Source: Eubacteriales bacterium
GTDB taxonomy: Bacteria; Bacillota; Clostridia; Lachnospirales; Lachnospiraceae
NCBI GenBank assembly: GCA_030536575.1
Contig: JAUNPS010000004.1
Coordinates: 100,812 to 164,811, forward strand
DNA: 64,000 nucleotides
Direction: 5' to 3'
Positions 24,813 through 37,302 of this stretch are shown in pieces. Position 1 is the first letter of the stretch, and each line of letters starts with the position of its first letter. The translations under genes were made by a program, and so were the position numbers. Below the pieces are notes generated by a model. The model was not told the origin of the DNA and searched no databases. It saw only the letters and a list, made by a program, of their open reading frames with translations.

Positions 24813-26141
24813 GTGCATAGGCTGGTCATTCATAAGCTTGGGCCGATTGATCATTGTGAGCTGGAATGTTCGGAATTTATGACTTTTACAGGGTTTCAGG
24901 CGTCGGGGAAAAGCACAATTGCGAAAGCGATCTACTACTTTCGGACGATAAAAGAGGATATTGTCGAGCTGGCGAAGGGCCAAGCTTTGAGAACCGCTGC
25001 GATAAGCGGGGCAGAAGTGAAGCTTGTGCCAGAATATAACTCCGGACTGAAAAAAGATTTGGAAAATTCGTTAAGAGAAAAGTTCCTGAGAACTTTTGGC
25101 TCTTCCTGGGGAATGGCGAATGAAATGTATATGGAGTATCATTTCACAGAGAGCTGCTTTGTGCGGATTTCGCTGAGAGATGACATTACCTACGCGACGC
25201 CAAATTATATTTGGATAACATGCAGCCGGGAATTAAGAGATTTTCTGTACCGAAAAAATGGTAGTTTGTCTGTTACGGCGCTGGGCGTATCAGAGGAGAA
25301 ACTGAAAAAGTTTAAAGAAGAGCTATTCGAGTTGTTTGATGACCACTGCTCGATTGTTTATATTCCGGCCGGGCGCAGCATGATAACCTTGTTGTCGCAG
25401 CAGCTTGGATATATTTATGCGACGATGGACGATATGCAGAAACGTTCCCTGGACAGTTGTACAAAAGATTATCTGGAACGGATTTTGCGGTTAAAGCCGG
25501 AATTCTCGGAAGGATTGCAGGGAATGGCTTCTTATCCGGCAAGAAGGGGAGCGCTGCCGCCGAAAATTGTGAGACAGGCATTAGACCTGATTAAAAAGGT
25601 TTTAAGAGGAACCTACCGTTACCGGGATGGGGAAGAACAGATTGTTTTGGATGATGGGAGATATGTCAAAATAAACTTTTCGTCTTCTGGCCAGCAGGAG
25701 TGCGTATGGATTCTAAATCTGCTTTTTTATTATCTGCTTCAGTCGCAAAAGACATTATTTATTATAGAAGAACCGGAATCGCACTTGTTCCCGGAATCGC
25801 AGAAATATATTACGGAACTGATTGCTCTGGCAGCGAATTGCGGTCATTCGATTTTGCTTACAACCCATAGCCCGTATGTTCTTGGAACGTTAAATAATTT
25901 GTTGTATGCGCATGCAATTCCGAAAGAATATACGGAAGCGGCGGGTGAAGTGATACCAGCCAATTTGTGGCTTGACGATGCGTTTTTTGATTCCTGGTTT
26001 GTAAAAAACGGAACCATTGAAAACTGCATGGATCAGGAAATTCATATGATTCAGAATGAAAGAATTGATGAAATTTCGAAGGTGATTAACGAAGAATTTG
26101 AGGAGCTTTTGAATTTGCAGGATACGGAAGGGGCGGGATGA
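24813..26141 (+). CDS. AAA-family ATPase (ABC-type/OLD-like head), standalone
   Basis: A 442-residue protein beginning with GTG at 24813 after AAAGGAG. Walker A is GFQASGKST (residues 27-35). An ABC-like signature SSSGQQECVWIL comes near residue 290, Walker B IIEEPESHLFPES near 317, and a switch histidine in TTHSPYVLG. The layout matches the ATPase heads of the SMC/Rad50/OLD group with a short insertion and no long coiled coil. No TOPRIM or other nuclease domain is visible at the C-terminus, and no nuclease gene is adjacent. Such proteins occur in defence systems and as orphan genes; its relation to the lanthipeptide genes downstream is unknown. Confidence 0.75.
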   Translation: MHRLVIHKLGPIDHCELECSEFMTFTGFQASGKSTIAKAIYYFRTIKEDIVELAKGQALRTAAISGAEVKLVPEYNSGLKKDLENSLREKFLRTFGSSWGMANEMYMEYHFTESCFVRISLRDDITYATPNYIWITCSRELRDFLYRKNGSLSVTALGVSEEKLKKFKEELFELFDDHCSIVYIPAGRSMITLLSQQLGYIYATMDDMQKRSLDSCTKDYLERILRLKPEFSEGLQGMASYPARRGALPPKIVRQALDLIKKVLRGTYRYRDGEEQIVLDDGRYVKINFSSSGQQECVWILNLLFYYLLQSQKTLFIIEEPESHLFPESQKYITELIALAANCGHSILLTTHSPYVLGTLNNLLYAHAIPKEYTEAAGEVIPANLWLDDAFFDSWFVKNGTIENCMDQEIHMIQNERIDEISKVINEEFEELLNLQDTEGAG

Positions 26142-26181
26142 TTTTGTAGGAAGCGGACAGGACATAAATTTGAAACATTAA

Positions 26182-26251
26182 AACGACATAATGAGGTCAG
26201 AAATCGACAATTCAAGGATATTTCACCCAAAATCTTATTTTCTGTTATACT
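26182..26251 (+). promoter_or_regulatory. Candidate LytTR-controlled promoter of the lanthipeptide locus
   Basis: The element CGACA occurs at 26184-26188 and 26205-26209, a direct repeat with a 21-base period (two helical turns), which is the spacing typical of LytTR-domain sites. A -10 TATACT lies at 26246-26251 with no recognisable -35, as expected for an activator-dependent promoter. The 150-base region otherwise holds no gene. Confidence 0.45.
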
Positions 26252-26291
26252 GTTTTATAGGAAATCAGAGGAGTTACGACAGGAGAAAAAA

Positions 26292-27011
26292 GTGATAAGA
26301 ATAGCAGCGTTAGACGATGATTTCACGATTCTGGAACGGATTCGGAAGGCGACGGATCAGTTTTTTGCAGACACCGGGATTTCATATAAGCTGGAAACCT
26401 ATCAGAACACGAAGGCGTTTTATCAGGATCTGGAAGAGGATGTGTGTTATGACATTTATCTTTTGGATGTGGAATTGCCGGATACGAATGGGCTGGAGGT
26501 GGCCAGGCAGATCCGTCGGTACTACTGTGAACCATTCCTGATCTATATTACGAATCATACGGAATATGCGATCGAAGCATTCGAAGTGAATGCATTTCGC
26601 TACATACCGAAGAAAATTCTGGAAGAACAGCTTCCCAAGGCTTATGCGCTGATGTCCTCGAAGATTCTGGACTACGACGAGCATGCGATTGTGGTGGAGA
26701 ACGGCGGTCGCCGGGAGAGGATTGAGCATAAAAACATTTACTATCTGAAAAAGGATCGGAAGTATGTGATTTTGGTTCATCGCTATGGGGAGAGTCGGAT
26801 TCGGGGGACGCTTCAGATGGTTTTGGAGGAGTTGGACCCGGAAGAGTTTATGTATATTGATAAAGGGTGTGTGGTAAGTATTCGTCATGTTATGTCCTTG
26901 AAGCAGCAGCAGGTTCTCATGCGGAACGAGCAGGTGCTTCCGGTAAGCCGTCCGCGGTTGAGAGGTGTGAAGATGCGGATTTCGGATTACTGGAGAAGAG
27001 GGAAATGGTGA
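26292..27011 (+). CDS. LytTR response regulator (AgrA/ComE type)
   Basis: A 239-residue two-component regulator. GTG at 26292 follows AGGAG by 7 bases. The receiver domain has the acidic pocket LDDD (residues 7-10), phospho-acceptor Asp59 in LLDVELPD and the conserved Lys in RYIPKK. A LytTR DNA-binding domain follows from about residue 140 (IYYLKKDRKYVILVH, FMYIDKGCVVSIRHV). This class controls peptide-induced systems such as bacteriocins. The stop overlaps the next gene's start region by seven bases, so the kinase is translationally coupled. It probably regulates the lanA-lanM genes downstream. Confidence 0.92.
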   Translation: MIRIAALDDDFTILERIRKATDQFFADTGISYKLETYQNTKAFYQDLEEDVCYDIYLLDVELPDTNGLEVARQIRRYYCEPFLIYITNHTEYAIEAFEVNAFRYIPKKILEEQLPKAYALMSSKILDYDEHAIVVENGGRRERIEHKNIYYLKKDRKYVILVHRYGESRIRGTLQMVLEELDPEEFMYIDKGCVVSIRHVMSLKQQQVLMRNEQVLPVSRPRLRGVKMRISDYWRRGKW

Positions 27012-27301
27012 GAGGACTGTTTTTTGTTGAGCAGGTGCTGGAGTGGGGACTGGGTGTTTACCTGGTGGCGTATGAGGAGATTACAGAGAGTGAGTGGAGT
27101 TGGAAGAAGAAGGCAGCGAGCGTTTTATTTTTGCTCGTGTTTTGTGCCTTTACAGCACGAAATTTAAGCCTATACTTTTGCTCTACGATCGATATGGTAT
27201 TTCTTTCACTTATACTTTCAGCATATATTCGAATTATGTGGAAAGTACCCTGGATAACAGCATTCATATGTGAAAGTTTTTATAATATTACATGGGTTTA
27301 G
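27005..27301 (+). CDS. N-terminal membrane part of a GHKL sensor kinase, ended by an in-frame TAG
   Basis: A 98-codon frame beginning ATGGTGA inside the end of the response regulator gene. It contains about three hydrophobic segments, such as SVLFLLVFCAFTA and MVFLSLILSAYI, and then stops at TAG 27299-27301. The next codon is ATG in the same reading frame and opens the rest of the kinase. Together the two parts would give about 430 residues, the normal length of AgrC-type kinases with a six-helix sensor. I read this as one gene split by a single nonsense codon. Reinitiation at the adjacent ATG is possible but there is no good ribosome site. Confidence 0.8.
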   Translation: MVRGLFFVEQVLEWGLGVYLVAYEEITESEWSWKKKAASVLFLLVFCAFTARNLSLYFCSTIDMVFLSLILSAYIRIMWKVPWITAFICESFYNITWV

Positions 27302-28300
27302 ATGAGAATGTCATTTGTAATTCTTGAGGGATTACATAAAGATCAGACGTTCTATGAAGTGAACTATGGCGAACGGACGTGGGGAGAACTTATTTTTTGT
27401 TTTGCATTAATATCTATCTTGAGTGGCTTTGTATATCGCTACGGTCGGAAAATAGAATTATTTTTTAAGTGGGCAAGGCAGAAAAAGAGTGTCTTCTTAA
27501 CGGCTATTGTACTCGAAAACTTTATTGTTGTAGAGATTATGAGCTTTTCCAAAGATGAGCTTGATCGGCAGATATTGGGATTTAATTTTGCAATGCTGAT
27601 TTGTACAGGACTAGCTGTATTTAGTTTTTTAATTTATACACAGATGCAGGAGTTGAGAAAAGAAAATAGCATACTGGATATGAGACATGATGTACTTGAA
27701 AAACAATATGTGGGTTTGAAAAAGCAGTATGACTTGAAAAATAAACAGCTTCATGATCGAAAATATGAATTACAATATCTTTCCGAGTGTTTTACAGAAA
27801 AGAAATATGCAGAAGGAGCAGATTATATACGGAAATTGCAAGGCGAAGTAATGGTTCAGCAGAAAAGGCAAATCTGGACTGGTAATGGATTTGCTGATTT
27901 CCTTTTAGATACAGCAAAAGAACAGATGGATCGGAAGGGTATTAAAAATTTGTTTGATATTGCAGTACAGCAGATTCCAATAGAAATATCAGATTTTTGT
28001 ATACTCTTAGGGAATTTATTGGATAATGCTGTGGAAGCAGCAGAACAATGTGCAGCAGACCAACGTTGGATTCGGGTTGAACTGAAAAATATGAATCAAA
28101 TGCTGACGTTAATTATTGAAAATAGTTATGCTAACGAACCTATTTTAAAGAATGGCCGGTTTCTGTCCTCAAAGAAACATCCGGAAGGACATGGATGGGG
28201 AATTGAGAACGTAAAGAAAATTGTGGAGGAATCGGGAGGGTGGCATACATTTGAGTATAAAGACAAAAGATTTATCGCAACTATTGCGCTAAATGAATAA
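27302..28300 (+). CDS. C-terminal part of the split GHKL (AgrC-like) sensor kinase
   Basis: A 332-residue frame starting at the ATG directly after the TAG. Two or three further membrane helices (ELIFCFALISILSGF, AMLICTGLAVFSFLIY) lead into a coiled region. A likely phospho-acceptor His lies in QLHDRKYELQ (residue 151 here, about 250 in the joined frame). The ATP-binding GHKL domain shows the N-box LLGNLLDNAVEAAEQC and the glycine motif GHGWGIENVKK. The catalytic half is complete, so only the sensor region is affected by the stop. The sequence is more AT-rich than the neighbouring sugar operons, consistent with acquisition. In function it would phosphorylate the LytTR regulator. Confidence 0.85.
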   Translation: MRMSFVILEGLHKDQTFYEVNYGERTWGELIFCFALISILSGFVYRYGRKIELFFKWARQKKSVFLTAIVLENFIVVEIMSFSKDELDRQILGFNFAMLICTGLAVFSFLIYTQMQELRKENSILDMRHDVLEKQYVGLKKQYDLKNKQLHDRKYELQYLSECFTEKKYAEGADYIRKLQGEVMVQQKRQIWTGNGFADFLLDTAKEQMDRKGIKNLFDIAVQQIPIEISDFCILLGNLLDNAVEAAEQCAADQRWIRVELKNMNQMLTLIIENSYANEPILKNGRFLSSKKHPEGHGWGIENVKKIVEESGGWHTFEYKDKRFIATIALNE

Positions 28301-28323
28301 GAGTAAGAAAGGAAGAATGATGC

Positions 28324-28464
28324 ATGGAGAAAGAACTTTGTGTAGCAGGGGATATTCTGCAGGAAGTAAAAGAGAGTGAACGTGGGTTCAAGGAAAATGG
28401 AGAAGATATTTCAACATATTCTTCAACGTGCGGTGGTTTTATTTCGCTTATTTGCTGCTATTAA
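28324..28464 (+). CDS. Class II lanthipeptide precursor (LanA)
   Basis: A 46-residue peptide not usually called because of its size. ATG 28324 has AAGGAAG at 28309-28315, 8 bases upstream. The leader (about residues 1-28) is acidic and contains DILQEVKESER, matching the LLEEVQEDEL-type leader motif of lacticin-481-group precursors. The core STYSSTCGGFISLICCY (residues 30-46) has six Ser/Thr and three Cys (36, 44, 45) and ends in Cys-Cys-Tyr, suitable for up to three thioether rings. It lies directly before a LanM gene and after a sensor pair. Odd points are a Cys in the leader (residue 6) and no clear double-Gly cleavage site. The leader/core border is inferred. Confidence 0.85.
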   Translation: MEKELCVAGDILQEVKESERGFKENGEDISTYSSTCGGFISLICCY

Positions 28465-28475
28465 GAAAAACATTG

Positions 28476-28515
28476 AAAATGCTGTCTGATCCGGAAACGG
28501 CGGACAGCATTTTTT
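28476..28515 (+). terminator. Attenuator-like terminator between lanA and lanM
   Basis: AAAATGCTGTC (28476-28486) pairs with GACAGCATTTT (28503-28513). Within the loop CCG-GAAA-CGG (28491-28500) makes a second short stem with a GNRA tetraloop. Six T residues follow. Position and strength suit partial termination that keeps lanA mRNA well above lanM mRNA. Confidence 0.85.
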
Positions 28516-28542
28516 CTATCATTTGAACGGGAGCCGATGATT

Positions 28543-31449
28543 ATGGATTTTTGGAAAGACCTTTTAGGGGAAACGCTGGCCGCGGAAGAGATTTCTGTTT
28601 TGGATAGCGATTTAAAGATGCGGGCGGATGTTTGTGAGATAAAGGGTATCTTTAACAGCATTACGCAGGAAGAAGTGGAGCGAGAAAAAGAAGAACTGGA
28701 AAGTATCGTTGGCGAGGCTACTTTCGGGAATTTTTTTGATCCGTTTCTTTTGGCGGCGGTGGAGTATGGGAAAAGGCGGTCGGTTGTTTCCTTTGTAAAA
28801 AAGAATGTTTTTCGGCAAATTTATGGGATGCCGCTTCGGACGCTGGTGTATGAACAGCATATGGAAGATGTGCAGGGGAATTTGGCTGGCGGCGATTCAA
28901 AGGAAAAATATCAGGATTTTGAGGCGCGTTTGGGGCAGATTGCGTATGTCAGAGGGCTTTGCGAAAAGTATCCGGAGATGTTTCGGCTGATTCTGCTGAA
29001 ATGCGTGGAGATTGTTCAATATATTGGGGAAATCCTGCGGGAGTTTTTGGAGGACAAGCGGGAAATTGAAGGAAAACTTTGCGAGGGCGTAAGTTTCCGA
29101 GAGATTAAAAATCTGGAACTTGGATTGTCTGATACGCATTGTGCCGGAAAAACGACCGTGAAAATAGATCTTGATAATGGGATGAGCATTATTTATAAAC
29201 CGCATGGTTTGCAGAAAGAAAACAGCTATCAGAAAGCATATGCCTGGCTGTGCAAAAAGGCGGACAAAGAAACCTGTGACCTTCCGATGCTTGACAAGAA
29301 AAGCTATGGCTGGGAGCGGTTTTTAGAGAAGGCGGCGTGCAAAAATGAAAGGGAAGTGGAACGATATTTCTATCGGATTGGCGTGCATCTTTTCTTGTGC
29401 AGGTTGTTGGGAGCGTCTGACATTCACAGGGAAAATATTTTGGCGGTTGGGGAATTTCCGGTTTTCCTGGATGCGGAGACGATACCGGGAGTAGAAAAGT
29501 CGGAGGAAGCGGACAGTGCGGAGCAGAAAATTTCGCGGTATGCGATGGATTCCGTGATGCCTTGTGGAATTTTGCCGGTTTTTCTGTGGGGGCAGGGTGA
29601 GGGCGTAAACCTGAGTGTTCTGAGCGAGGAAGAGCGGCAGGAAACACCGATGAAAATGCCTGTAATCATAAATGATAAAACCTCTGATATGAAGGTTGTT
29701 TATCAGACGAAGTGGCTTGGGGCCGCGGAGAGTATGCCGGTGTTGGAAGGGAAAAAGATTCGCATTGCAGATTATACCGAAATGATTTGCAAGGGATTTG
29801 CGGAAGCTTATCAGAATGGAATGAAGGACAGGGAGGGCCTGATGCGGCCGTTCCGGGAAATTGATGACCTTGATACGAGGTATCTGTTTCGGCATACACA
29901 ACAGTATGATATGTTTTTGTCGAGCTCTTTTCATCCGGCGTTTTTGACGGATACGGGGAAGAGAAAGCGGTTTTTGCAGGTTTTGAAGAAGGGGGAGAGC
30001 CAGGCGGAGAATCCAGCGGTGGAATATGAAATTCGGGAATTGTTAAATATGGATATTCCATTGTTCTCGCTGTCAAAAGAGGAGATTTTGAAAAATTCGG
30101 ACGGGGAAGAAATTGGAGAGCTGGAGAAGAAAAACAGGATTGCGGTTTGGAAGAGAATTGAAGGGCTGAGCGAGGAGGATTTACGGAGGCAGGTCGGATT
30201 TATTAAGGCGACGGTGGAGGCTTATTCGCATTGCCCGATTGAAGTTAAGGCGAAGGAATCTCAGAAGGGCAGTCGGGAGGAAGCAGTCAGGGCGGAGCTT
30301 CGGGAGATTGCGGAGCTGATTTGCAGACAGGCGGTCTGGTGCGGGGAAGATGTGAATTGGTTATCGATCCGGTTTTTAGGGAAAAGGCAATGGAGATGGG
30401 AGCCGTTGGAAATGTCTTTGTATGACGGACTTTCGGGGATTACTGTTTTTCTGGCGCTTGTGAAGGAGGTTTTTCCGGAGGAGAAGTATCAGAAGTTGTT
30501 TTCAGCGGTTGAGAAAAAATTGCTTCAATATACGGACCGGGTGCTGGCGGGCGGCGAGGAGCCGAAGTCGGCGCAGACGGGCGCATTTTTAGGAGAAAGT
30601 TCGATTGTTTATGCATATTTGCTTTTGCGTGAGATTACGGGGGAGCGGAAGTATCTGGAATATGCGAAAAGGCATGCCGTGATTGTGGGAAGGTTGATGC
30701 CGCAGGATACGAAAAGGGATTTTCTGGTGGGGAATGCGGGGGCGATTTGGGTTCTGTGCAGGTTGTACCGGGAGACGGGGGAGGAGTGTTATCGGGAGAT
30801 TGCGGTTAAAGCGGGAGATGCGCTTTTGAGTCAGGCTGAGGAGCAGGAGACGGGAATTGGATGGAAAGCGGCAGGTGAGAAGGCGCCGTTAGCGGGGATG
30901 GCTCACGGAAACAGCGGGTTTCTTAGGGCGTATGCGGCGCTTTTGAAGGAGACAGGGAATGGAAAGTATGTGGAGGTGATCCGGAAGGTTCTGGAATATG
31001 AGGATTCGTTGTATTCGGAGGAGCTGGAGAATTGGAGGGATGTTCGGAAGGATACGCCGGGGGAATATATGAATGCGTGGTGTAATGGGGCGCCGGGGAT
31101 TTTGGTGGCGCGGATGGAATTGCGGGAGCTGGAGGAATTTCGGAAGGATGAAATGGTGGAACGGGATTTGGTGAGGGCTGGAAATGCGGTGATGGGGCAG
31201 GAACCGGGGATGCAGACGTGTATTTGCCATGGGGCGGCGGGGAATTACTGGATTGCGCGGGAGTTTGTGTGGAGGAGTGGAAGTGGGGAGTGGAAGGAGA
31301 GACTTGGGGAGATAATGGATGGGCTGCTGGGAGCGGCGAAAGAGGAGAGGGTGAGGTTTCCGGAGGGGAGATATATGTGGGGGATGATGAATGGATTGGC
31401 GGGGGTTGGGGTGGTTTTGTGTGGGATTGTTTTGGGGGACAAAGGATGA
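28543..31449 (+). CDS. Class II lanthipeptide synthetase LanM
   Basis: A 968-residue bifunctional enzyme that dehydrates Ser/Thr of the precursor and forms lanthionine rings. ATG 28543 is preferred over 28537 because GGGAG is then 9 bases away. The dehydratase half (about residues 100-560) shows the LanM motifs GLSDTHCAGKTTVKI, IIYKPHG and DIHRENILAVGEFPVFLDAET. The LanC-like cyclase half shows YDGLSGITVFLALV, GMAHGNSGF, then zinc ligands Cys847 in WCNGAPG and Cys895-His896 in CHGAAG. All key positions look intact and the length is normal. The 3' half of the gene is extremely rich in G on the coding strand. It probably modifies the peptide encoded at 28324. Confidence 0.95.
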   Translation: MDFWKDLLGETLAAEEISVLDSDLKMRADVCEIKGIFNSITQEEVEREKEELESIVGEATFGNFFDPFLLAAVEYGKRRSVVSFVKKNVFRQIYGMPLRTLVYEQHMEDVQGNLAGGDSKEKYQDFEARLGQIAYVRGLCEKYPEMFRLILLKCVEIVQYIGEILREFLEDKREIEGKLCEGVSFREIKNLELGLSDTHCAGKTTVKIDLDNGMSIIYKPHGLQKENSYQKAYAWLCKKADKETCDLPMLDKKSYGWERFLEKAACKNEREVERYFYRIGVHLFLCRLLGASDIHRENILAVGEFPVFLDAETIPGVEKSEEADSAEQKISRYAMDSVMPCGILPVFLWGQGEGVNLSVLSEEERQETPMKMPVIINDKTSDMKVVYQTKWLGAAESMPVLEGKKIRIADYTEMICKGFAEAYQNGMKDREGLMRPFREIDDLDTRYLFRHTQQYDMFLSSSFHPAFLTDTGKRKRFLQVLKKGESQAENPAVEYEIRELLNMDIPLFSLSKEEILKNSDGEEIGELEKKNRIAVWKRIEGLSEEDLRRQVGFIKATVEAYSHCPIEVKAKESQKGSREEAVRAELREIAELICRQAVWCGEDVNWLSIRFLGKRQWRWEPLEMSLYDGLSGITVFLALVKEVFPEEKYQKLFSAVEKKLLQYTDRVLAGGEEPKSAQTGAFLGESSIVYAYLLLREITGERKYLEYAKRHAVIVGRLMPQDTKRDFLVGNAGAIWVLCRLYRETGEECYREIAVKAGDALLSQAEEQETGIGWKAAGEKAPLAGMAHGNSGFLRAYAALLKETGNGKYVEVIRKVLEYEDSLYSEELENWRDVRKDTPGEYMNAWCNGAPGILVARMELRELEEFRKDEMVERDLVRAGNAVMGQEPGMQTCICHGAAGNYWIAREFVWRSGSGEWKERLGEIMDGLLGAAKEERVRFPEGRYMWGMMNGLAGVGVVLCGIVLGDKG

Positions 31450-31479
31450 AAATAGAAAGAAGGCGGGAGGTGTGATGGG

Positions 31480-32145
31480 ATGTGGAAGGGTTGGAAAATT
31501 GCAGGGGCGGCGATTTGTCTGGTGGGGAGCGGGATGGCTGCTTCGGCGGAAAAGAATGTGGAATTTCGGGAGCCGGTTGTTTGTGTGGAAAGACAGGATG
31601 GGGTTTTGAAGGGGGAGATTGATGCGCTTTTGAAGAAGGGCGGTGTTCCATATGTTCCGGAGGAGGGGTATCCAGTGACGGTTTCGGGGATGGAGCGTGT
31701 GAATATTCAGCCGGAGTTTATGGATGAGGATGGATATGTGTTTTATTTTCAGGAGGAAATGATTGAGGAGGATGGGTATACGCTTTACACGGTAGAAAAG
31801 GATTATCGGGATTTTCAGGTGCTGGCGGAGGTGGTTACGCGGAGTTGGGAGGATGCGGAACGGGTTGTGGGGGTTCGGGTGGAGCTGAAGGATGGGACAG
31901 AGGACGTGCATATTGAGACGCCGACGGTGACGTTTGGGGAAGGGGAGGATGTTTTGGCGATGACGTGTGCGTATCGTTTGTGTGTTGCGGGGGATGGGAG
32001 TGAGGAGTTGGAGGCCAGAAATTTCCGGTATGATGAGGAAAAAGGGGAATGGAGCCGATTGGAGTATGTGCATGGGTATTATCTTTCGGAGTATGGGGAA
32101 AAGAATGAGGAAAAAACAAAAAGAGGACAAAATTTGACAAAATGA
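31480..32145 (+). CDS. Unknown exported protein of the lanthipeptide locus
   Basis: A 221-residue protein that I do not recognise. ATG 31480 follows GGGAGGTG by 7 bases and sits 30 bases after lanM, so it is likely in the same transcript. A signal peptide (WKIAGAAICLVGSGMAASA) ends near residue 23. The mature part is acidic and rich in Tyr, Val and Glu, with a GKVxx-free beta-like pattern and no Cys cluster or membrane helix. Gly codons are mostly GGG/GGA as in the end of lanM. Possible roles are immunity, leader processing aid or an unrelated secreted factor; none is shown by sequence. A promoter for the downstream small RNA begins inside its last codons. Confidence 0.7.
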   Translation: MWKGWKIAGAAICLVGSGMAASAEKNVEFREPVVCVERQDGVLKGEIDALLKKGGVPYVPEEGYPVTVSGMERVNIQPEFMDEDGYVFYFQEEMIEEDGYTLYTVEKDYRDFQVLAEVVTRSWEDAERVVGVRVELKDGTEDVHIETPTVTFGEGEDVLAMTCAYRLCVAGDGSEELEARNFRYDEEKGEWSRLEYVHGYYLSEYGEKNEEKTKRGQNLTK

Positions 32146-32169
32146 GGTCTGGATGGAATAATGGGAAAA

Positions 32170-32307
32170 AAGGTGTATAATGAAGGTGTCCCAGTTATTG
32201 GGGATCAGTATAGCGGGCCATGAGAGTCACCTGCCCGTGTGGAACGCTTGCTGATAAATTGGAAAGGCTGCGCATGTCCCTCCGAAACAGAGCGCAGTCT
32301 TTTTTTG
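32170..32307 (+). ncRNA. Candidate orphan small RNA with own promoter and terminator
   Basis: A promoter TTGACA (32134-32139), 17 bases, AATAAT (32157-32162), with an alternative -10 TATAAT at 32176-32181, is followed by about 110-135 bases without a credible gene. The segment can form small stems TCCC/GGGGA (near 32190-32205) and CGGGC/GCCCG (near 32214-32237). It ends in a strong terminator, AGGCTGCGC (32265-32273) with GCGCAGTCT (32292-32300) and seven T residues. It matches no riboswitch or housekeeping RNA consensus I know. The exact 5' end is uncertain. Confidence 0.55.
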
Positions 32308-32571
32308 TCGTGATAAGATCGCCAAACATCGGAATAAAATTTCGTCAAACATCGGAATAGGTTTATGCCAAATATGGAAAAGAGCGAGAAGGTGTCAGAA
32401 AATGATGCCTTTTTCTTTTGGACAAAATTTTAAAATGCTTCTAAACAAATGTCTAATACAAAGATAAAGGAAAGGGAAAATCATGCGACAGGCGGTGAGT
32501 GCTGTTTTTGAACCATTTCGATAGAATAGAAATAGAAAAAGTGATTGCATCACAGAAGAAAGGAGATTTTT
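32308..32571 (+). promoter_or_regulatory. Upstream region of the esterase locus with a promoter-like element shared with 37468
   Basis: A 264-base gap without a gene. GATAGAATAGAAATAGAAAA at 32520-32539 contains TAGAAT as a likely -10 and is nearly repeated at 37468, before the importer of the same locus. No good -35 is visible, which suggests an activator. The CATCGGAATA-type phrase occurs twice (around 32326 and 32350) as a short direct repeat. Confidence 0.5.
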
Positions 32572-34263
32572 ATGAAAAAGAGAGTAAAAGCGCTGGCATG
32601 TTTGCTGGCAGCATCCATGCTGGCGGTGCCGACTGCCGCCTATGCCGGTTTTGAGACAGAGGTTACATATGTCGGTACGGACGGACCAGTTGTTGCAACG
32701 ACAGGCGGGGATGTGCTGGGGTACAAAGTGGACGGCACATACCGTTTCCTGGGTATTCCTTATGCAACCGCGGGGCGCTTTGAAGAGCCGCAGCCCATCT
32801 CCTGGGAGAATACTTATTATGCGCTGACTTATGGTACGGTTTGCCCAGTTGACAGTATTGATTCAATTAATTTTACAGAATTTGTGACGCCTTCAGCGGT
32901 AACAAACCAACTGTACAATGAAGATTGCCAGAATTTGAATATCTGGACAAACTCTGTTGACAGCAGTGCAAAAAAACCAGTTATTGTCTGGCTGCATGGC
33001 GGCGGCTTTTCCAATGGATCATCCACAGAACTGAAATACTATGATGGAGAGAATCTGGCTAAGGAAGGCGATGTGGTATTTGTTTCAATTAACCACCGTC
33101 TGAATATGCTTGGCTTTTTGGATTTGTCCGAATATGGCGAGGAATATGCAAATTCCGGAAATCTGGGTACAATGGATATGGTAGCCGCCCTGCAGTGGGT
33201 ACATGACAATATTGAACAGTTTGGCGGAGATCCCGACAATGTAACAATTATCGGTCAGTCGGGCGGCGGAGCGAAAGTTACCACACTCTGTGCCCTTCCG
33301 GCTGCACAGGGACTTTTCCAAAAAGCGATTGTGGAATCCACTGCTCATGATGATTACGCAGAGGGCAACAATCAGGAGACCGCCCGTGAAGTAGCCGCTT
33401 TGACAATGGAAAATCTGGGCGTTACGACGGTAGAAGAACTCCAGAATGTGGAGTATGCAAAGCTGATTGCAGCCGGCAGCGAAGCGATCGCTGCTGTAAA
33501 AGAGGAAGGCTCCTCCTATAACTGGGGACCTGTGGTGGATGGCAGTTATTATCCGGAACGGAGTCTTGTGGACGGCGAATTCAGTGAGTATGGAAAAGAT
33601 ATCACGATGATCGTCGCTTCTGTTCTGGGAGAAATGTCCGGAAACAGTATCCAGCTTAGTAAGGGACTGGGCATGCCTGAGATGTGGCAGGGCTCGTCGC
33701 TGAGTGAAGAAGAAGCGCTTGCAAAACTGGAGGAAACCTATGGGGAACAGGCACAGGCAATCGCGGACGCATTCCTTGCCGCTTACCCGGATCACGAACT
33801 GGGTGACGCTCTGTGGGTAGACACGACTTTTCTGGAAAAATCCACGGAGATTGTGGAGGCAAAGGCAAAACAGACGGAGGAAGGCGGAGCAAAGGTATAT
33901 CAGTACGTATTTGCGCAGGATTATGCCTGCTTCGGCGGCGTTACACCGTCTCATTGTGCAGAGATTCCTTACTGGACCCATAATGTAGAAATGATTCCTG
34001 AATTAACTTATGACAGGGATGAGGCTTATGCACTGGAGGGGATACTGAGCACAGCCTATGTCAATTTCGCCTATACAGGGGACCCGTCCCAGGATGGGCT
34101 TGAATGGCAGAATTATACTCTTGAAGAACCGGCTCTGATGGTCTTTGATACAAACAGCCATCTGACAAGTACGGAAGTTTATAATCTGTGCGATTTGATG
34201 ACCGGTGCGGGAGCGTTGACTACAGATGAATCAAAGGCTGCTATTAGTAACGCGGCTGACTGA
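32572..34263 (+). CDS. Secreted type-B carboxylesterase (first copy)
   Basis: A 563-residue exported alpha/beta hydrolase of the carboxylesterase/PnbA family, hydrolysing carboxylic esters outside the membrane. ATG 32572 follows AAAGGAG. The signal peptide MKKRVKALACLLAASMLAV ends at AYA-GF. The oxyanion hole is LHGGGFSNGSS, nucleophile Ser230 lies in GQSGGGA, and the catalytic His is probably in SHCAEIPYW. The N-terminal FLGIPYATAGRFEEP stretch is the standard family opening. A close paralogue lies at 44708 in the same locus, which suggests different acyl specificities or tandem acquisition. The natural substrate is unknown. Confidence 0.92.
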   Translation: MKKRVKALACLLAASMLAVPTAAYAGFETEVTYVGTDGPVVATTGGDVLGYKVDGTYRFLGIPYATAGRFEEPQPISWENTYYALTYGTVCPVDSIDSINFTEFVTPSAVTNQLYNEDCQNLNIWTNSVDSSAKKPVIVWLHGGGFSNGSSTELKYYDGENLAKEGDVVFVSINHRLNMLGFLDLSEYGEEYANSGNLGTMDMVAALQWVHDNIEQFGGDPDNVTIIGQSGGGAKVTTLCALPAAQGLFQKAIVESTAHDDYAEGNNQETAREVAALTMENLGVTTVEELQNVEYAKLIAAGSEAIAAVKEEGSSYNWGPVVDGSYYPERSLVDGEFSEYGKDITMIVASVLGEMSGNSIQLSKGLGMPEMWQGSSLSEEEALAKLEETYGEQAQAIADAFLAAYPDHELGDALWVDTTFLEKSTEIVEAKAKQTEEGGAKVYQYVFAQDYACFGGVTPSHCAEIPYWTHNVEMIPELTYDRDEAYALEGILSTAYVNFAYTGDPSQDGLEWQNYTLEEPALMVFDTNSHLTSTEVYNLCDLMTGAGALTTDESKAAISNAAD

Positions 34264-34295
34264 TCGAAGGAATTGAGAAAGGAATGGAATATTGT

Positions 34296-35963
34296 ATGAA
34301 AAATAAGGCTATTAGAAAATCAAATTTCATTTTTGCATGTGCGGCTGTGTCAGTTATGCTGCCGAATATGTGTGGGGCGGCTGCGGAATTGAACGATATT
34401 GGGAATGACGCGTATGTCGTTACGGAAGACAGCGTCGTTGAGGGGTATGTTCTTGTTGGCAGTGATCAGGCTCTGGCTATCTCATTTACGGAGGATGATC
34501 TGAATGTCCCGGATACGGAATTACTGACGGATAAGGAGCTTCTTTTTGTAAATACGCTTCAGGAGGAACAGGGCAGCTATGATCTCGGAGACAGAACTAT
34601 TCGCGCAGAGAAATTAAACGGCGCGGAATCCCTTGCCAGGATTCGTTATCCGGAGCAGGGGACGCCTTCGGATAGTTTGGTGTATGTGGATGAAGCGTCG
34701 AATACGGCATACACGGATTTGTCCATTGGCAATGGCATGGCAATCTGCGGAGGTGATGACAGCAGTTATATGGCATGGGGAGATTCCTACTATAAACTGC
34801 TTGCCCTGCAGTCCGCTGCACATAAGCTGACTGCATTGACAGAAGACATGACGGATGCTGTTGTGATGGATGGAGAGGGCAATTCTGTTTCTACGGCGTA
34901 TATCGCAGATATGACAGAGCTGGTTGACCGTGTGATGAATTTTGATAATGATCTGATCTATGAGTATGATCATGACAAGATCACCGCGAATTACATTGCT
35001 GTGAACGGAACGGCAACTTTGGAATTCCATCTTCCCCAGACGGGTTTCCTTGGATATCTGCTGATGGGGACTGGCTTTGTCGAGGAAAGTTATATTAATC
35101 ATCAGATATTTGCTGTGAGATATTCCGATTGGCTTTATTTTATACGCGATACAGATGTGCAGGGTTCTTATTTGATTATGGATGACGAGGAAGCACTTTT
35201 GATTGACGTTGGGCACTGGAATGGCCCTGCGATGTGGGAGAAAGTGCAGACTCTGATAGGAGAAAGAAGTCTCTCTGTTTATATCACGCATGCGCATGGC
35301 GACCATTGGTACAATCTTCAGTATTTTGATGCGGACAGAATTGACCAGGTTTATTTCCCTGCTGATGAGGTCGCTACCCGTGTACAGGAAAATGAAGGCG
35401 TTTACGACCTCAATGAGGATCTTGAGAATCGTTTTGCAGGAAAAACAGTTCGCGTAAAGGATGGAGATGTCCTGAATGTTGCGGGAAAATCATTGGAAGT
35501 AATCGGGGTGACAGGACATACGCCTTATGGTACAGTGCTGCTGGACATTGAGGATAAGACATTATTCTGCGGAGACGCATTGGGAACCCAGACTTTTGGA
35601 GGAGGTTCTTCATTAAAAACCAGCACGGTTGATACCTGGTCATCAGGGCTGCACCATTTAAATGAAGTGTTAAAGACCGGGACAGATGAGTGCCGTGTAG
35701 AAGTGATTTATCCCGGACATCAGGCGTATGCGCTGGGCGTAGACTATCTGCAGGGCCTGACTGCCTGTGTAGATGCACTTTCTGAGAATGGAATGGATGC
35801 AACACTGTATGCTCCAATGGGAAAAGGAAGCCAGCTTGTTGTTGCCAAAAATGGCGAATTGATTACCCAGGAAGAATTGGATGAATTGTTTGCCAGCAAT
35901 ATCACAGATGCTGAAGCGGTCGCTTATGCTTCGGTTTCCTTTGTAGATGACACAGTACAATAA
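34296..35963 (+). CDS. Secreted metallo-beta-lactamase-fold hydrolase
   Basis: A 555-residue exported protein. ATG 34296 is preferred because the AAAGGA site directly abuts the ATG at 34284. The signal peptide ends near GAAA-EL. Residues of about 40-260 form an unassigned N-terminal region. The C-terminal half is an MBL fold with the metal motif THAHGDHW (His332, His334, Asp336, His337), a further His in VTGHTPYG, Asp in FCGDALG and His in IYPGHQ. All ligands for a dinuclear metal site are present. Members of this superfamily cleave esters, lactones, amides or sulfates, so the substrate remains open. It lies between two esterases in one direction. Confidence 0.85.
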   Translation: MKNKAIRKSNFIFACAAVSVMLPNMCGAAAELNDIGNDAYVVTEDSVVEGYVLVGSDQALAISFTEDDLNVPDTELLTDKELLFVNTLQEEQGSYDLGDRTIRAEKLNGAESLARIRYPEQGTPSDSLVYVDEASNTAYTDLSIGNGMAICGGDDSSYMAWGDSYYKLLALQSAAHKLTALTEDMTDAVVMDGEGNSVSTAYIADMTELVDRVMNFDNDLIYEYDHDKITANYIAVNGTATLEFHLPQTGFLGYLLMGTGFVEESYINHQIFAVRYSDWLYFIRDTDVQGSYLIMDDEEALLIDVGHWNGPAMWEKVQTLIGERSLSVYITHAHGDHWYNLQYFDADRIDQVYFPADEVATRVQENEGVYDLNEDLENRFAGKTVRVKDGDVLNVAGKSLEVIGVTGHTPYGTVLLDIEDKTLFCGDALGTQTFGGGSSLKTSTVDTWSSGLHHLNEVLKTGTDECRVEVIYPGHQAYALGVDYLQGLTACVDALSENGMDATLYAPMGKGSQLVVAKNGELITQEELDELFASNITDAEAVAYASVSFVDDTVQ

Positions 35964-35988
35964 AAAATGAATGTAAGGAGATAGCAAA

Positions 35989-37302
35989 ATGAAGAAGACA
36001 ATCGTAATAACCTTATCAAGCATACTGTTAACGATGGGACTTGCGGGAAGCTGCACGGCGGAAGAAGCGGAAGCAAAAATTGTTGCCGCAATTCCTGTAA
36101 CAGAGGTTCAGAACAGTGGAGAGACACTTGCTGGAGTCCGAATTGAATTTTCAGAGGAAGTACCGGCTACAGAGGTATATTCTACTGCACTGGGAGATGC
36201 ATTTACAGCCCGGGTAGACCGCGAAGTAGAATACATCTATATCAGTGAGAGCGGCGAGTGGGGAGATGTGGCGGCAGAGTCAGGAAAATACTGTTTCATT
36301 GATTTTGCGGATGGCTCTTCCAATGTGCAGAATTATGTGAATGATATTACCTTCAGCGAGCCGGATAAAACCAGAGGAAAGATTCAGTTTTTTGTGGGGC
36401 AGAATAAACCGATTACAACGGTTTCCGGAACTGTGATCGGGTCGGGTGCAACGATGTGCAGTTCCAATAATGGAGAGATGCGTCTTCTGATTGATGATTT
36501 TGAGGAATTCATCTGGACAGACGAGGAGACGGGAACCGAGATTTACGGATATCTTTATAAACCGGAAGGTTATGAAGAAAATACATATCCTATGGTCGTA
36601 CACTTCCCGGCGGGGGATCGTCTTTATACAGAGTGGAACGGCGGCTACCGCGGCGCGCTCTTTACCCATCAGGATGTTGTGGTGTGGGCTTCCGATGAGG
36701 TACAGGCTGAGAATCCCTGTTTTGTCCTGACGATTGGAGAACCGGTAAAAGACAGCATTACATCAGAAATGTATCTGAAAATGGTGGATGAAGTAGTCGC
36801 ACAGTATGGCATTGACACCAGTCGGCTTTATGCCGTTGCCCCAGCCAGCGGCGCTGCGCTGATGTTCCCGGCAGTGCTGGAGAATCCGGATAAATTTGCC
36901 GCGCTTCTGCAGTGCTCGGATAACGTATATCATGAGTTCGAGACGGAGGAAGAGACAGAGCAAGCATTTATTCAGATGACGGACAGCATGCCGACATGGT
37001 TTTTCGCCGCAAGCGATTACAATGATGTAAGAGTCCAGCAGTTGGCTCTGGCTGTTAATGAGCAGGGCAGCAATATCGATGTCACAGTCGGCGAACAGAT
37101 GTGGAACGGTCAGCTTCGGGGAGAAGCGGCTGCAGAACTGGCACGGGAGCAGGTTGCGCGGGCGCAGGCAAACGGTTCCGATGATATGGTCACGATTTTC
37201 CGCGCGAATACCGTAAAGGGTGTTGGCCATTGGAGCTGGAATGAGAGCTTCACAAATGCCGGAGTTTGGGAATGGCTGTTTGCGCAGTCCCTTGATAAGT
37301 AA
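35989..37302 (+). CDS. Secreted alpha/beta-hydrolase-like protein with altered nucleophile elbow
   Basis: A 437-residue exported protein, starting after AAGGAGA. A signal peptide precedes residue 25, and an Ig-like beta domain spans about residues 25-165. The hydrolase domain has YGYLYKPEGYEENTYPMVVHFP and IDTSRLYAVAPASGAAL. In relatives this last segment reads RIYLTGLSMGG. Aligning the Arg-x-Tyr and the Gly places Ala where the catalytic Ser should be, with a Ser one position later. A possible catalytic His is in VGHWSWNE. It may be a pseudoenzyme or use a shifted Ser. It ends the first transcript of the locus at a strong terminator. Confidence 0.75.
   Translation: MKKTIVITLSSILLTMGLAGSCTAEEAEAKIVAAIPVTEVQNSGETLAGVRIEFSEEVPATEVYSTALGDAFTARVDREVEYIYISESGEWGDVAAESGKYCFIDFADGSSNVQNYVNDITFSEPDKTRGKIQFFVGQNKPITTVSGTVIGSGATMCSSNNGEMRLLIDDFEEFIWTDEETGTEIYGYLYKPEGYEENTYPMVVHFPAGDRLYTEWNGGYRGALFTHQDVVVWASDEVQAENPCFVLTIGEPVKDSITSEMYLKMVDEVVAQYGIDTSRLYAVAPASGAALMFPAVLENPDKFAALLQCSDNVYHEFETEEETEQAFIQMTDSMPTWFFAASDYNDVRVQQLALAVNEQGSNIDVTVGEQMWNGQLRGEAAAELAREQVARAQANGSDDMVTIFRANTVKGVGHWSWNESFTNAGVWEWLFAQSLDK

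Follow-up and report, generated by a model that had tools for sequence, protein, structure and literature searches.

A LanT-free class II lanthipeptide locus linked to a LytTR/GHKL pair in Lachnospiraceae: a candidate autoinduction cassette

The agr system has the promoters P2 and P3 and RNAIII as its output. Nisin, a lanthipeptide, is its own inducer via the two-component pair NisRK, but its genes include LanB/C, T, P, I and FEG and it has an antibiotic role. In the lacticin 481 group the core comprises approximately 27 residues, and ruminococcin A has regulators beside its genes. The locus analyzed here lies at positions 26292-32145 of a 64,000-nt stretch of contig JAUNPS010000004.1 (the window), with flanking sites outside this gene span, and contains genes for a response regulator (RR) with a LytTR domain, a GHKL histidine kinase, a short precursor peptide and the lanthipeptide synthetase LanM. 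It belongs to a transporterless, kinase-linked LanM clade delimited in this analysis. We consider it reasonably probable that it is self-contained and Agr-like: an autoinduction cassette in which a small class II lanthipeptide serves as the signal.

As in agr, which is outlined in the portion of PMC10301443 considered here, a GHKL kinase, a LytTR regulator and a short peptide gene stand together in the window. Like agr, the locus also has tandem LytTR-type sites in two places, ahead of the operon and ahead of the candidate output, in our case a structured RNA, although binding of the RR to these sites is predicted. It differs from agr in that the genome of the window has no AgrB match, the peptide is of the LanM type and not an AgrD, and the modifying enzyme is LanM. 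With the lacticin 481/ruminococcin A group it shares LanM, the motif [S/T]x[S/T]xxC and a terminal CC, but the core in the window has only approximately 17 residues and neither the GG/GA site nor the FTCC end, and there is no LanT. The lacticin-481-type features used for this comparison (TVSx[ED]C-like motif, FTCC end, GG/GA site) are those given in excerpts of a Hungate1000 survey (PMC13289728).

The closest published case to a linkage of LanM and kinase is, in the same portion of PMC10301443, that of the CA_C0082 LanM-like proteins of Clostridium, which are likewise encoded beside an agr-type kinase-regulator pair. According to this description, on which our comparison is based, they lack the catalytic residues and work with AgrBD, while the LanM of the window is complete and accompanied by a precursor. 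Tandem LytTR repeats at peptide-induced promoters, similar to the two sites described below, are reported for streptococcal sil in an excerpt of PMC2766830; however, sil uses a competence-stimulating-type peptide with its own export genes (excerpt of PMC5222867). Among titles and abstract beginnings in the open literature on lanthipeptides, with subscription papers outside this scope, there was no description of a transporterless kinase-linked LanM family, and the main text of a large mining paper (PMC7268733) contains no occurrence of LytTR, histidine kinase, Lachnospiraceae or signaling.

Parts of the locus and its LanM clade

The genome of the window, a draft assembly of 100 contigs and 4.81 Mb that is 90.7% complete, contains a single LanM match. 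The locus and its flanks contain the following parts (ORF, open reading frame):

26185..26219, plus strand: site A, tandem LytTR-type half-sites 21 bp apart, upstream of the RR operon; -10-like TATACT at 26246-26251
26292..27011, plus strand: response regulator with LytTR DNA-binding domain, 239 aa (Pfam Response_reg 57 bits, LytTR 51 bits)
27005..27301, plus strand: probable N-terminal membrane part of the GHKL kinase, 98 aa; frame shared with the 332-aa ORF, ends at TAG 27299-27301
27302..28300, plus strand: remainder of the GHKL histidine kinase, 332 aa, with more membrane segments (Pfam HATPase_c_5, 83 bits)
28324..28464, plus strand: lanthipeptide precursor, 46 aa, of a homologous family; leader MEKELCVAGDILQEVKESERGFKENGED(I), probable core STYSSTCGGFISLICCY
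28475..28514, plus strand: hairpin and T run separating precursor from LanM, probable partial terminator/attenuator (fold z -3.9)
28537..31449, plus strand: LanM class II lanthipeptide synthetase, 970 aa (TIGR03897; DUF4135 and LANC_like), dehydratase and zinc-cyclase residues intact
31480..32145, plus strand: 221-aa ORF with signal-peptide-like start (by eye), 30 bp 3' of LanM; candidate immunity or effector gene
32115..32149, plus strand: site B, second tandem LytTR-type site; -10-like TATAAT at 32176-32181, 52-bp spacing as in site A
32186..32312, plus strand: predicted structured RNA of approximately 115 nt behind site B, with an intrinsic-terminator-like hairpin at about 32261-32304

The original prediction of a class II lanthipeptide locus was confirmed: the genes lie where they had been placed, with the LanM domains and the adjoining precursor. 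To the locus described as minimal, LytTR-type sites on both sides, the attenuator-like hairpin and the predicted structured RNA have to be added.

The LanM of the window scores 698 bits against NCBIfam TIGR03897 (cut-off 304); the solved LanMs closest to it in sequence are LicM2 (266 bits) and CylM (184 bits). In a LanM tree, 18 cassette LanMs were split from 16 other LanMs by a branch with 100/99 support. Fourteen of these 16 come from LanT-bearing loci, and the other two (both G147) sit on a 6.4-kb contig, too short for a LanT check. The interrupted LanM of G324 and a short LanM of G025 (C23) were excluded from the tree, and G223 was assigned to neither group. Among the cassette rows, the contig of G163 ends before any kinase and G696 has other ORFs between precursor and LanM.

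The dehydratase residues were read from the alignment to CylM positions, in what we take to be the CylM residue numbering; the arginine equated with R506 is the invariant R448 of the LanM alignment. These residues and the zinc ligands are kept in all 18 cassette LanMs (942-1061 aa, one protein being cut by a contig end), and a degenerate LanM was rejected on this basis. The same finding bears on the idea that LanM is regulatory rather than peptide-modifying, as was considered for the Agr-linked CA_C0082 of Clostridium acetobutylicum. In the portion of PMC10301443 used here, Agr-controlled LanM-like genes beside agrCA are documented, but the CA_C0082 homologues are without zinc and dehydratase residues and have 670-728 aa, whereas the cassette LanMs keep these residues at the lengths given above and have a precursor nearby. 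A regulatory role of this kind is thus highly improbable for the window.

Two further LanMs deserve mention. An orphan LanM within the cassette clade (L140:3248-6253, G223) has two catalytic aspartates replaced, and no kinase or precursor was seen in its neighbourhood; it is possibly a repurposed enzyme, reminiscent of CA_C0082. The genomes G320 and G025 (L131, L132), which belong to different genera, have identical LanM proteins in very similar gene surroundings, suggesting recent transfer.

The precursor at 28324-28464 had been described as easy to miss, and its conservation beside lanM in related strains had been named as a check. Since a homologous short ORF lies before LanM and behind a GHKL kinase in many other genera, the frame is more than a chance ORF. 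A search of 299 same-family genomes gave matches at E <= 0.1 in 13 genomes, six of which (that of the window, G030, G163, G032, G085 and G003) were borne out by neighbouring genes. In the latter five the match directly precedes LanM, and a GHKL-type kinase precedes the precursor wherever the contig extends (that of G163 ends at the precursor). The matches in the other seven genomes were not borne out by their neighbours, two of them and a second match in G003 being judged by reading frame or ORF list alone. The precursor is also present in G299, a genome of the same genus, while no LanM was found in G204, likewise of this genus. With a seven-row precursor profile, 17 places in 16 of 397 family genomes were matched at E <= 3.9e-7 (next match 0.003); six of the 16 had supplied profile rows. 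At the level of the order (392 genomes), four genomes, each a member of this same family, yielded matches below 1e-8. The order RR-kinase-precursor-LanM recurs in the ORF maps of relatives. One match, L086 in G136, was rejected as a false precursor.

At least 41 different related precursors (that of the window and 40 from relatives) were collected; the set leaves out the LanT-linked L171 and L157 with its single terminal Cys, and contains L149, L158, L206 and L213, added by eye. The statement that the core matches nothing known holds for Pfam, NCBIfam and PHROGs, where the precursor reached no family above cut-off, but has to be amended by this set of relatives. The element [S/T]xxCC is found near the C-terminus of 40 of the 41 precursors, partly by construction, since the profile was trained on CC-ending peptides; as a partial check, a small ORF that carries CC at its end or close to it was seen in four of five kinase-adjacent loci without a profile match. 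The longer form [S/T]x[S/T]xxC...[S/T]xxCC fits 24 precursors, including STYSSTCGGFISLICCY of the window, in which TYSSTC corresponds to TxSxxC and the end is SLICCY. A third Cys lies at most 15 residues before CC in 25 of 41, and the shortest cores, for example SLSGGLLSLICC (L158), retain the last element alone.

As predicted, a double-Gly site is missing: GG, GA and GS are absent from the precursor of the window, and 37 of the 41 precursors have no GG/GA/GS/AG between residues 20 and 15 from the end. The proposed membership in the lacticin-481 group therefore stands only with regard to TxSxxC and the final CC, while the GG/GA site and the FTCC end are lacking and the leader resembles the plantaricin C model of NCBIfam weakly and below threshold (14 bits, cut-off 29). 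The family core appears to be a shortened version of the TxSxxC...CC arrangement seen in the lacticin 481 group. Similar ends were also seen in LanT-linked precursors with a GAG-type site, namely MTIICC in L131:11008-11238 and L132:6073-6303 (G320 and G025) and FFTLICCK in L171:983-1228. These are a possible evolutionary link to the transporterless family.

Distribution of the cassette and the missing LanT

Named genomes were scanned with the 18-row LanM alignment as query, and the best 80 of 230 loci were scored for kinase, RR, precursor and LanT with profiles built in this analysis. With the window LanM as lone query, there was no match in the named-genome contigs, and none in viral contigs. 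A kinase is directly upstream of LanM in 37 of the 80 loci and a LanT-size C39 ABC transporter is present in 33, while ten have neither and none has both. The records of the 37 kinase-adjacent loci are labelled mostly as Lachnospiraceae or its genera, some only as Clostridia or Eubacteriales. In 35 of them the RR precedes the kinase, and in 36 there is a short precursor that terminates in CC or has it close to the terminus (32 by profile, four by eye). A LanT-size C39 transporter was found in none of the 37 within the fetched stretches, which span at most 9 kb per side of LanM and total less than 15 kb in 13 cases; a 572-aa ABC transporter approximately 7 kb off in L161, which matches the LanT profile with 264 bits, was scored as not LanT-size. 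Four of the ten loci with neither kinase nor LanT carry a precursor: the contigs of L155 and L180 begin at the locus, L159 has no kinase in the 1.4 kb upstream, and L199 has RR and kinase further up. For comparison, ten of 12 stretches with other LanMs (L131-L142) contain a LanT-profile ORF of 706-732 aa; of the remaining two, the contig of L133 is too short, and L140 (G223) is without LanT and kinase.

Carriers of the cassette include Blautia wexlerae MSK.20.46 (precursor by eye), Blautia caecimuris, Faecalicatena orotica, Faecalicatena contorta, Dorea sp., Diplocloster agilis, Frisingicoccus caecimuris, Sellimonas caecigallum, Schaedlerella arabinosiphila and Drancourtella massiliensis. LanM clusters are normally taken as antibiotic clusters. 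A LanM above cut-off is present in 27 of the 397 family genomes, and 16 of these 27 carry the precursor family, that is, the transporterless kind. Should these loci serve in signalling, bacteriocin numbers for gut bacteria would have to be corrected, and common commensals such as Blautia, Dorea and Faecalicatena would own an unrecognised, chemically modified quorum-sensing language.

In agreement with the original prediction, there is no LanT nearby, and Peptidase_C39 has no match anywhere in the window's own genome at its 90.7% completeness. Among 19 carrier genomes, ten have no C39 match, six have weak ones (21-28 bits) and three (G015, G025, G341) have strong ones in frames of 715-745 aa; the strong frame of G025 adjoins a second, LanT-linked LanM. 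Based on these scans, export by LanT is unlikely for most carriers, in which both secretion of the peptide and removal of the leader would have to take another route. LanFEG genes were not recognised adjoining the locus in the ORF map, although no search aimed at them was made. AgrB (PF04647) gave no match in the own genome, with a weak control that was positive, below cut-off, in one of 14 control genomes; an AgrD/AgrB system was rejected on this basis.

Alternatively, the locus could encode a conventional antimicrobial lantibiotic that induces itself, with exporter, protease and immunity either encoded elsewhere or provided by general ABC exporters. Nothing about LanM and the core looks catalytically unusual, the C-terminus recurs in some LanT-linked precursors (MTIICC in G320 and G025, FFTLICCK in L171), a LanT-linked LanM with an adjoining kinase pair exists (L134), and exported-looking proteins behind the LanM of relatives could be immunity proteins. 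Moreover, nisin O of Blautia obeum is without its own leader protease, as described in a part of PMC11811420. However, this alternative has to account for the 37 kinase-adjacent stretches without a LanT-size transporter, for the lack of a strong LanT-size C39 match in 16 of 19 carrier genomes and of any C39 match in ten, and for cores shrunken to forms as short as that of L158. We regard it as unlikely. Peptide autoinduction seems to be the most economical mechanism, and the locus looks more like a signalling circuit than like an ordinary antibiotic cluster.

The same absence of an exporter would fit a peptide that is retained by the producing cell and works there, in the cytoplasm or at the membrane, for example as a timer or self-sensor that binds the kinase on its inner side. 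In favour of this are a cassette without a recognised exporter, a genome without a C39 match, the strong hydrophobicity of the core end (FISLICCY) and a leader with no cleavage motif. On the other hand, the kinases of 12 relatives have 5-7 hydrophobic segments, several such segments being typical of peptide-sensing GHKL kinases, and we know of no internal sensing of a lanthipeptide by such a kinase. Retention of the peptide is therefore improbable in our opinion.

The components of the cassette diverge together: the distances of LanM, RR, kinase sensor and kinase domain are correlated with Mantel r 0.82-0.91 (shuffled maximum 0.27; 30 loci), which speaks for co-inheritance of the cassette, not for binding. 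The kinase sensor is the most variable part, with 17.7% mean identity versus 31.7% for the kinase domain. A family of 180-233-aa proteins is present in 19 of the 80 loci (e.g. L147:5949-6554, L169:6054-6611, L198:5988-6665), typically just before the RR and in L151 beside a second RR. It probably belongs to the cassette as an additional gene; no member was seen ahead of the RR of the window, and four members that were scanned had no Pfam family over cut-off.

LytTR-type sites, hairpin and structured RNA

New in this analysis is the tandem LytTR-type site which precedes the regulator operon and occurs again behind the LanM operon, before the structured RNA. Sites A and B have a common 21-bp period and an equal distance to the -10. 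According to the excerpt of PMC2766830, LytTR regulators bind 9-bp repeats with a 12-bp spacer. No third site at <= 3 mismatches was found in the 4.81 Mb genome (control 0); since the pattern was derived from sites A and B, the two exact matches are given by construction and only the absence of others is informative.

A half-site AGGWCA, found by pairwise comparison of upstream and downstream regions, recurs in relatives. It was counted, together with a -10, in 37 loci (the window and 36 kinase-adjacent relatives; L172, in which LanM runs to the contig end, was omitted). There are 16 such sites in 39.6 kb upstream (4.0 per 10 kb) and nine in 33.9 kb behind LanM (2.65 per 10 kb), compared to 13 in 611 kb elsewhere (0.21 per 10 kb), seven in 684 kb of the minus strand (0.10 per 10 kb) and nine in 1.10 Mb of LanT-linked loci, both strands, an enrichment which is not an independent test because AGGWCA was read off some of the same loci. 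In the upstream-versus-downstream comparison (34 loci, eight shuffles each), the best pair reached at least the shuffled maximum + 3 in L152, L156, L162, L186 and L198, all with LytTR-type pairs, and exceeded the maximum by 2 in L147 and L150, while most others including the window did not stand out. A fixed half-site GACAWAAT was rejected as operator for being unspecific (18 matches in 0.65 Mb of cassette loci versus 12 in 0.55 Mb of LanT loci). Separately, near-identical terminator-like inverted repeats flank the cassette in L151 (6076-6111 and 11662-11697), with 32 of 36 bases equal, exceeding shuffles by at least 3.

The RNA behind site B is predicted to fold with -46.5 kcal/mol (z -2.9) and to have a terminator-like end; Rfam gave no match in 26000-32700. 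In five of seven relatives with a strict downstream site (L156, L177, L181, L184, L186) a gene for an exported-looking protein (127-249 aa, by eye) is next to it. Homologous gene pairs behind LanM were seen in L147 (from 12175) and L186 (from 12021), comprising an exported-looking protein of 162/167 aa and an ORF of 344/336 aa, with LytTR-type repeats before them; these are candidate output genes.

The 90 nt past the precursor stop fold at z <= -2 in 25 of 35 loci, the window included, versus seven of 70 random stretches; the count covers the loci with profile-detected precursors except L159, L171 and L199, those found by eye not being folded. A hairpin at this position suggests that the precursor is made in excess of the enzyme. 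An attenuating hairpin giving more precursor than enzyme is known from other lantibiotic operons.

The proposed circuit and the interrupted kinase

Based on these observations, we propose that the regulator operon yields the RR, the membrane GHKL kinase, the precursor and, beyond the hairpin, LanM, with the hairpin holding the precursor level above that of LanM. LanM would dehydrate Ser/Thr in the C-terminal core and close (methyl)lanthionine rings on Cys: two rings could form at the constant [S/T]xxCC end, and one more at the variable [S/T]x[S/T]xxC upstream of it. The modified peptide would arrive at the membrane or outside by a route other than LanT and be sensed by the kinase, leading to phosphorylation of the LytTR regulator. 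Binding of the phosphorylated regulator to site A would then cause autoinduction, and binding to site B would drive the output, which may be the structured RNA in the window and frequently the gene of a small exported protein in relatives. The original suggestion that the product is its own inducer is made likelier by the single LanM clade, the co-inheritance of the cassette and the LytTR-type sites, though it remains a deduction from them. By extension, and with roughly even odds, lanthipeptide pheromones could be widespread among gut Lachnospiraceae as one family of Agr-like circuits, with LanM in the place of AgrB, a variable stretch plus a constant [S/T]xxCC, LanT-free release, autoinduction by LytTR and a dedicated output promoter (for an RNAIII-like RNA in the window, for exported proteins in relatives).

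Several points weigh against autoinduction by a lanthipeptide signal. We infer modification, export and sensing of the peptide from gene content and motifs. Nisin and other known lantibiotics are also autoinducers, so autoinduction is compatible with an antibiotic. An export route was not found when C39 and AgrB were scanned, other ABC exporters not having been searched for. L157 has a kinase but no CC-ending precursor, its small ORF ending in a single Cys. An RR-kinase pair lies 0.6 kb before a LanT-linked LanM in L134:11286-16877, one of the 12 comparison loci and outside the 80, and kinase-like ORFs are found a few kb further off in the LanT-type loci L131, L132, L135, L137 and L139. Thus, a kinase beside LanM alone is not the mark of the family, which is the missing LanT together with a short CC-ended precursor. 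With the strict criterion, an upstream site is present in 16 of 37 loci, a downstream site in eight and both in five, and the half-site, as said, was read off some of these loci. The pair score of 24 in the window equals the maximum of eight shuffles (24) and is not beyond chance in the window alone, and one more site match is found on the minus strand of the window at approximately 59820.

To these points the state of the kinase has to be added. The pair of LytTR regulator and GHKL kinase is present as predicted, but the kinase frame is split in this assembly by the in-frame TAG 27299-27301, immediately before the ATG of the 332-aa ORF. In an alignment with the G003 kinase (414 aa) the latter covers residues 101-410, and the uncut kinases of relatives (414-502 aa) start approximately 100 residues earlier. 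A 98-aa ORF (ATG 27005), which overlaps the RR stop, lies in the same frame with only the TAG between. It had no significant match to the kinases of G003 and G299 (best E 0.2); its frame, position, length and hydrophobic segments nevertheless fit the missing N-terminus. The sensor part is thus broken in this assembly, while relatives have uninterrupted kinases.

It is conceivable, though rather doubtful, that the locus is decaying in the strain of the window, so that the circuit no longer senses. Besides the TAG itself, the regulator ORF is split in L162 and the kinase ORF in L165, and the cassette LanM of G324 (L078:9045-17636) is interrupted by transposase-like insertions while precursor, kinase and RR persist. 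However, the remaining ORFs of the window locus are all open, the ATG right behind the TAG permits re-initiation, and the TAG could be an error of the draft assembly. Decay in this strain would be compatible with autoinduction in the family at large.

The 221-aa ORF at 31480-32145 has no Pfam or NCBIfam family, and PHROGs gave one weak match only. Between 30900 and 32150, covering the 3' part of lanM and this ORF, the coding strand is strongly G-rich with GGG runs (by eye) and that of the kinase gene is not, a contrast hinting at different origins. Behind the structured RNA, at 32545-37302, three successive genes for exported hydrolase-like proteins were noted by eye: esterase-like, metallo-beta-lactamase-fold-like and again esterase-like.

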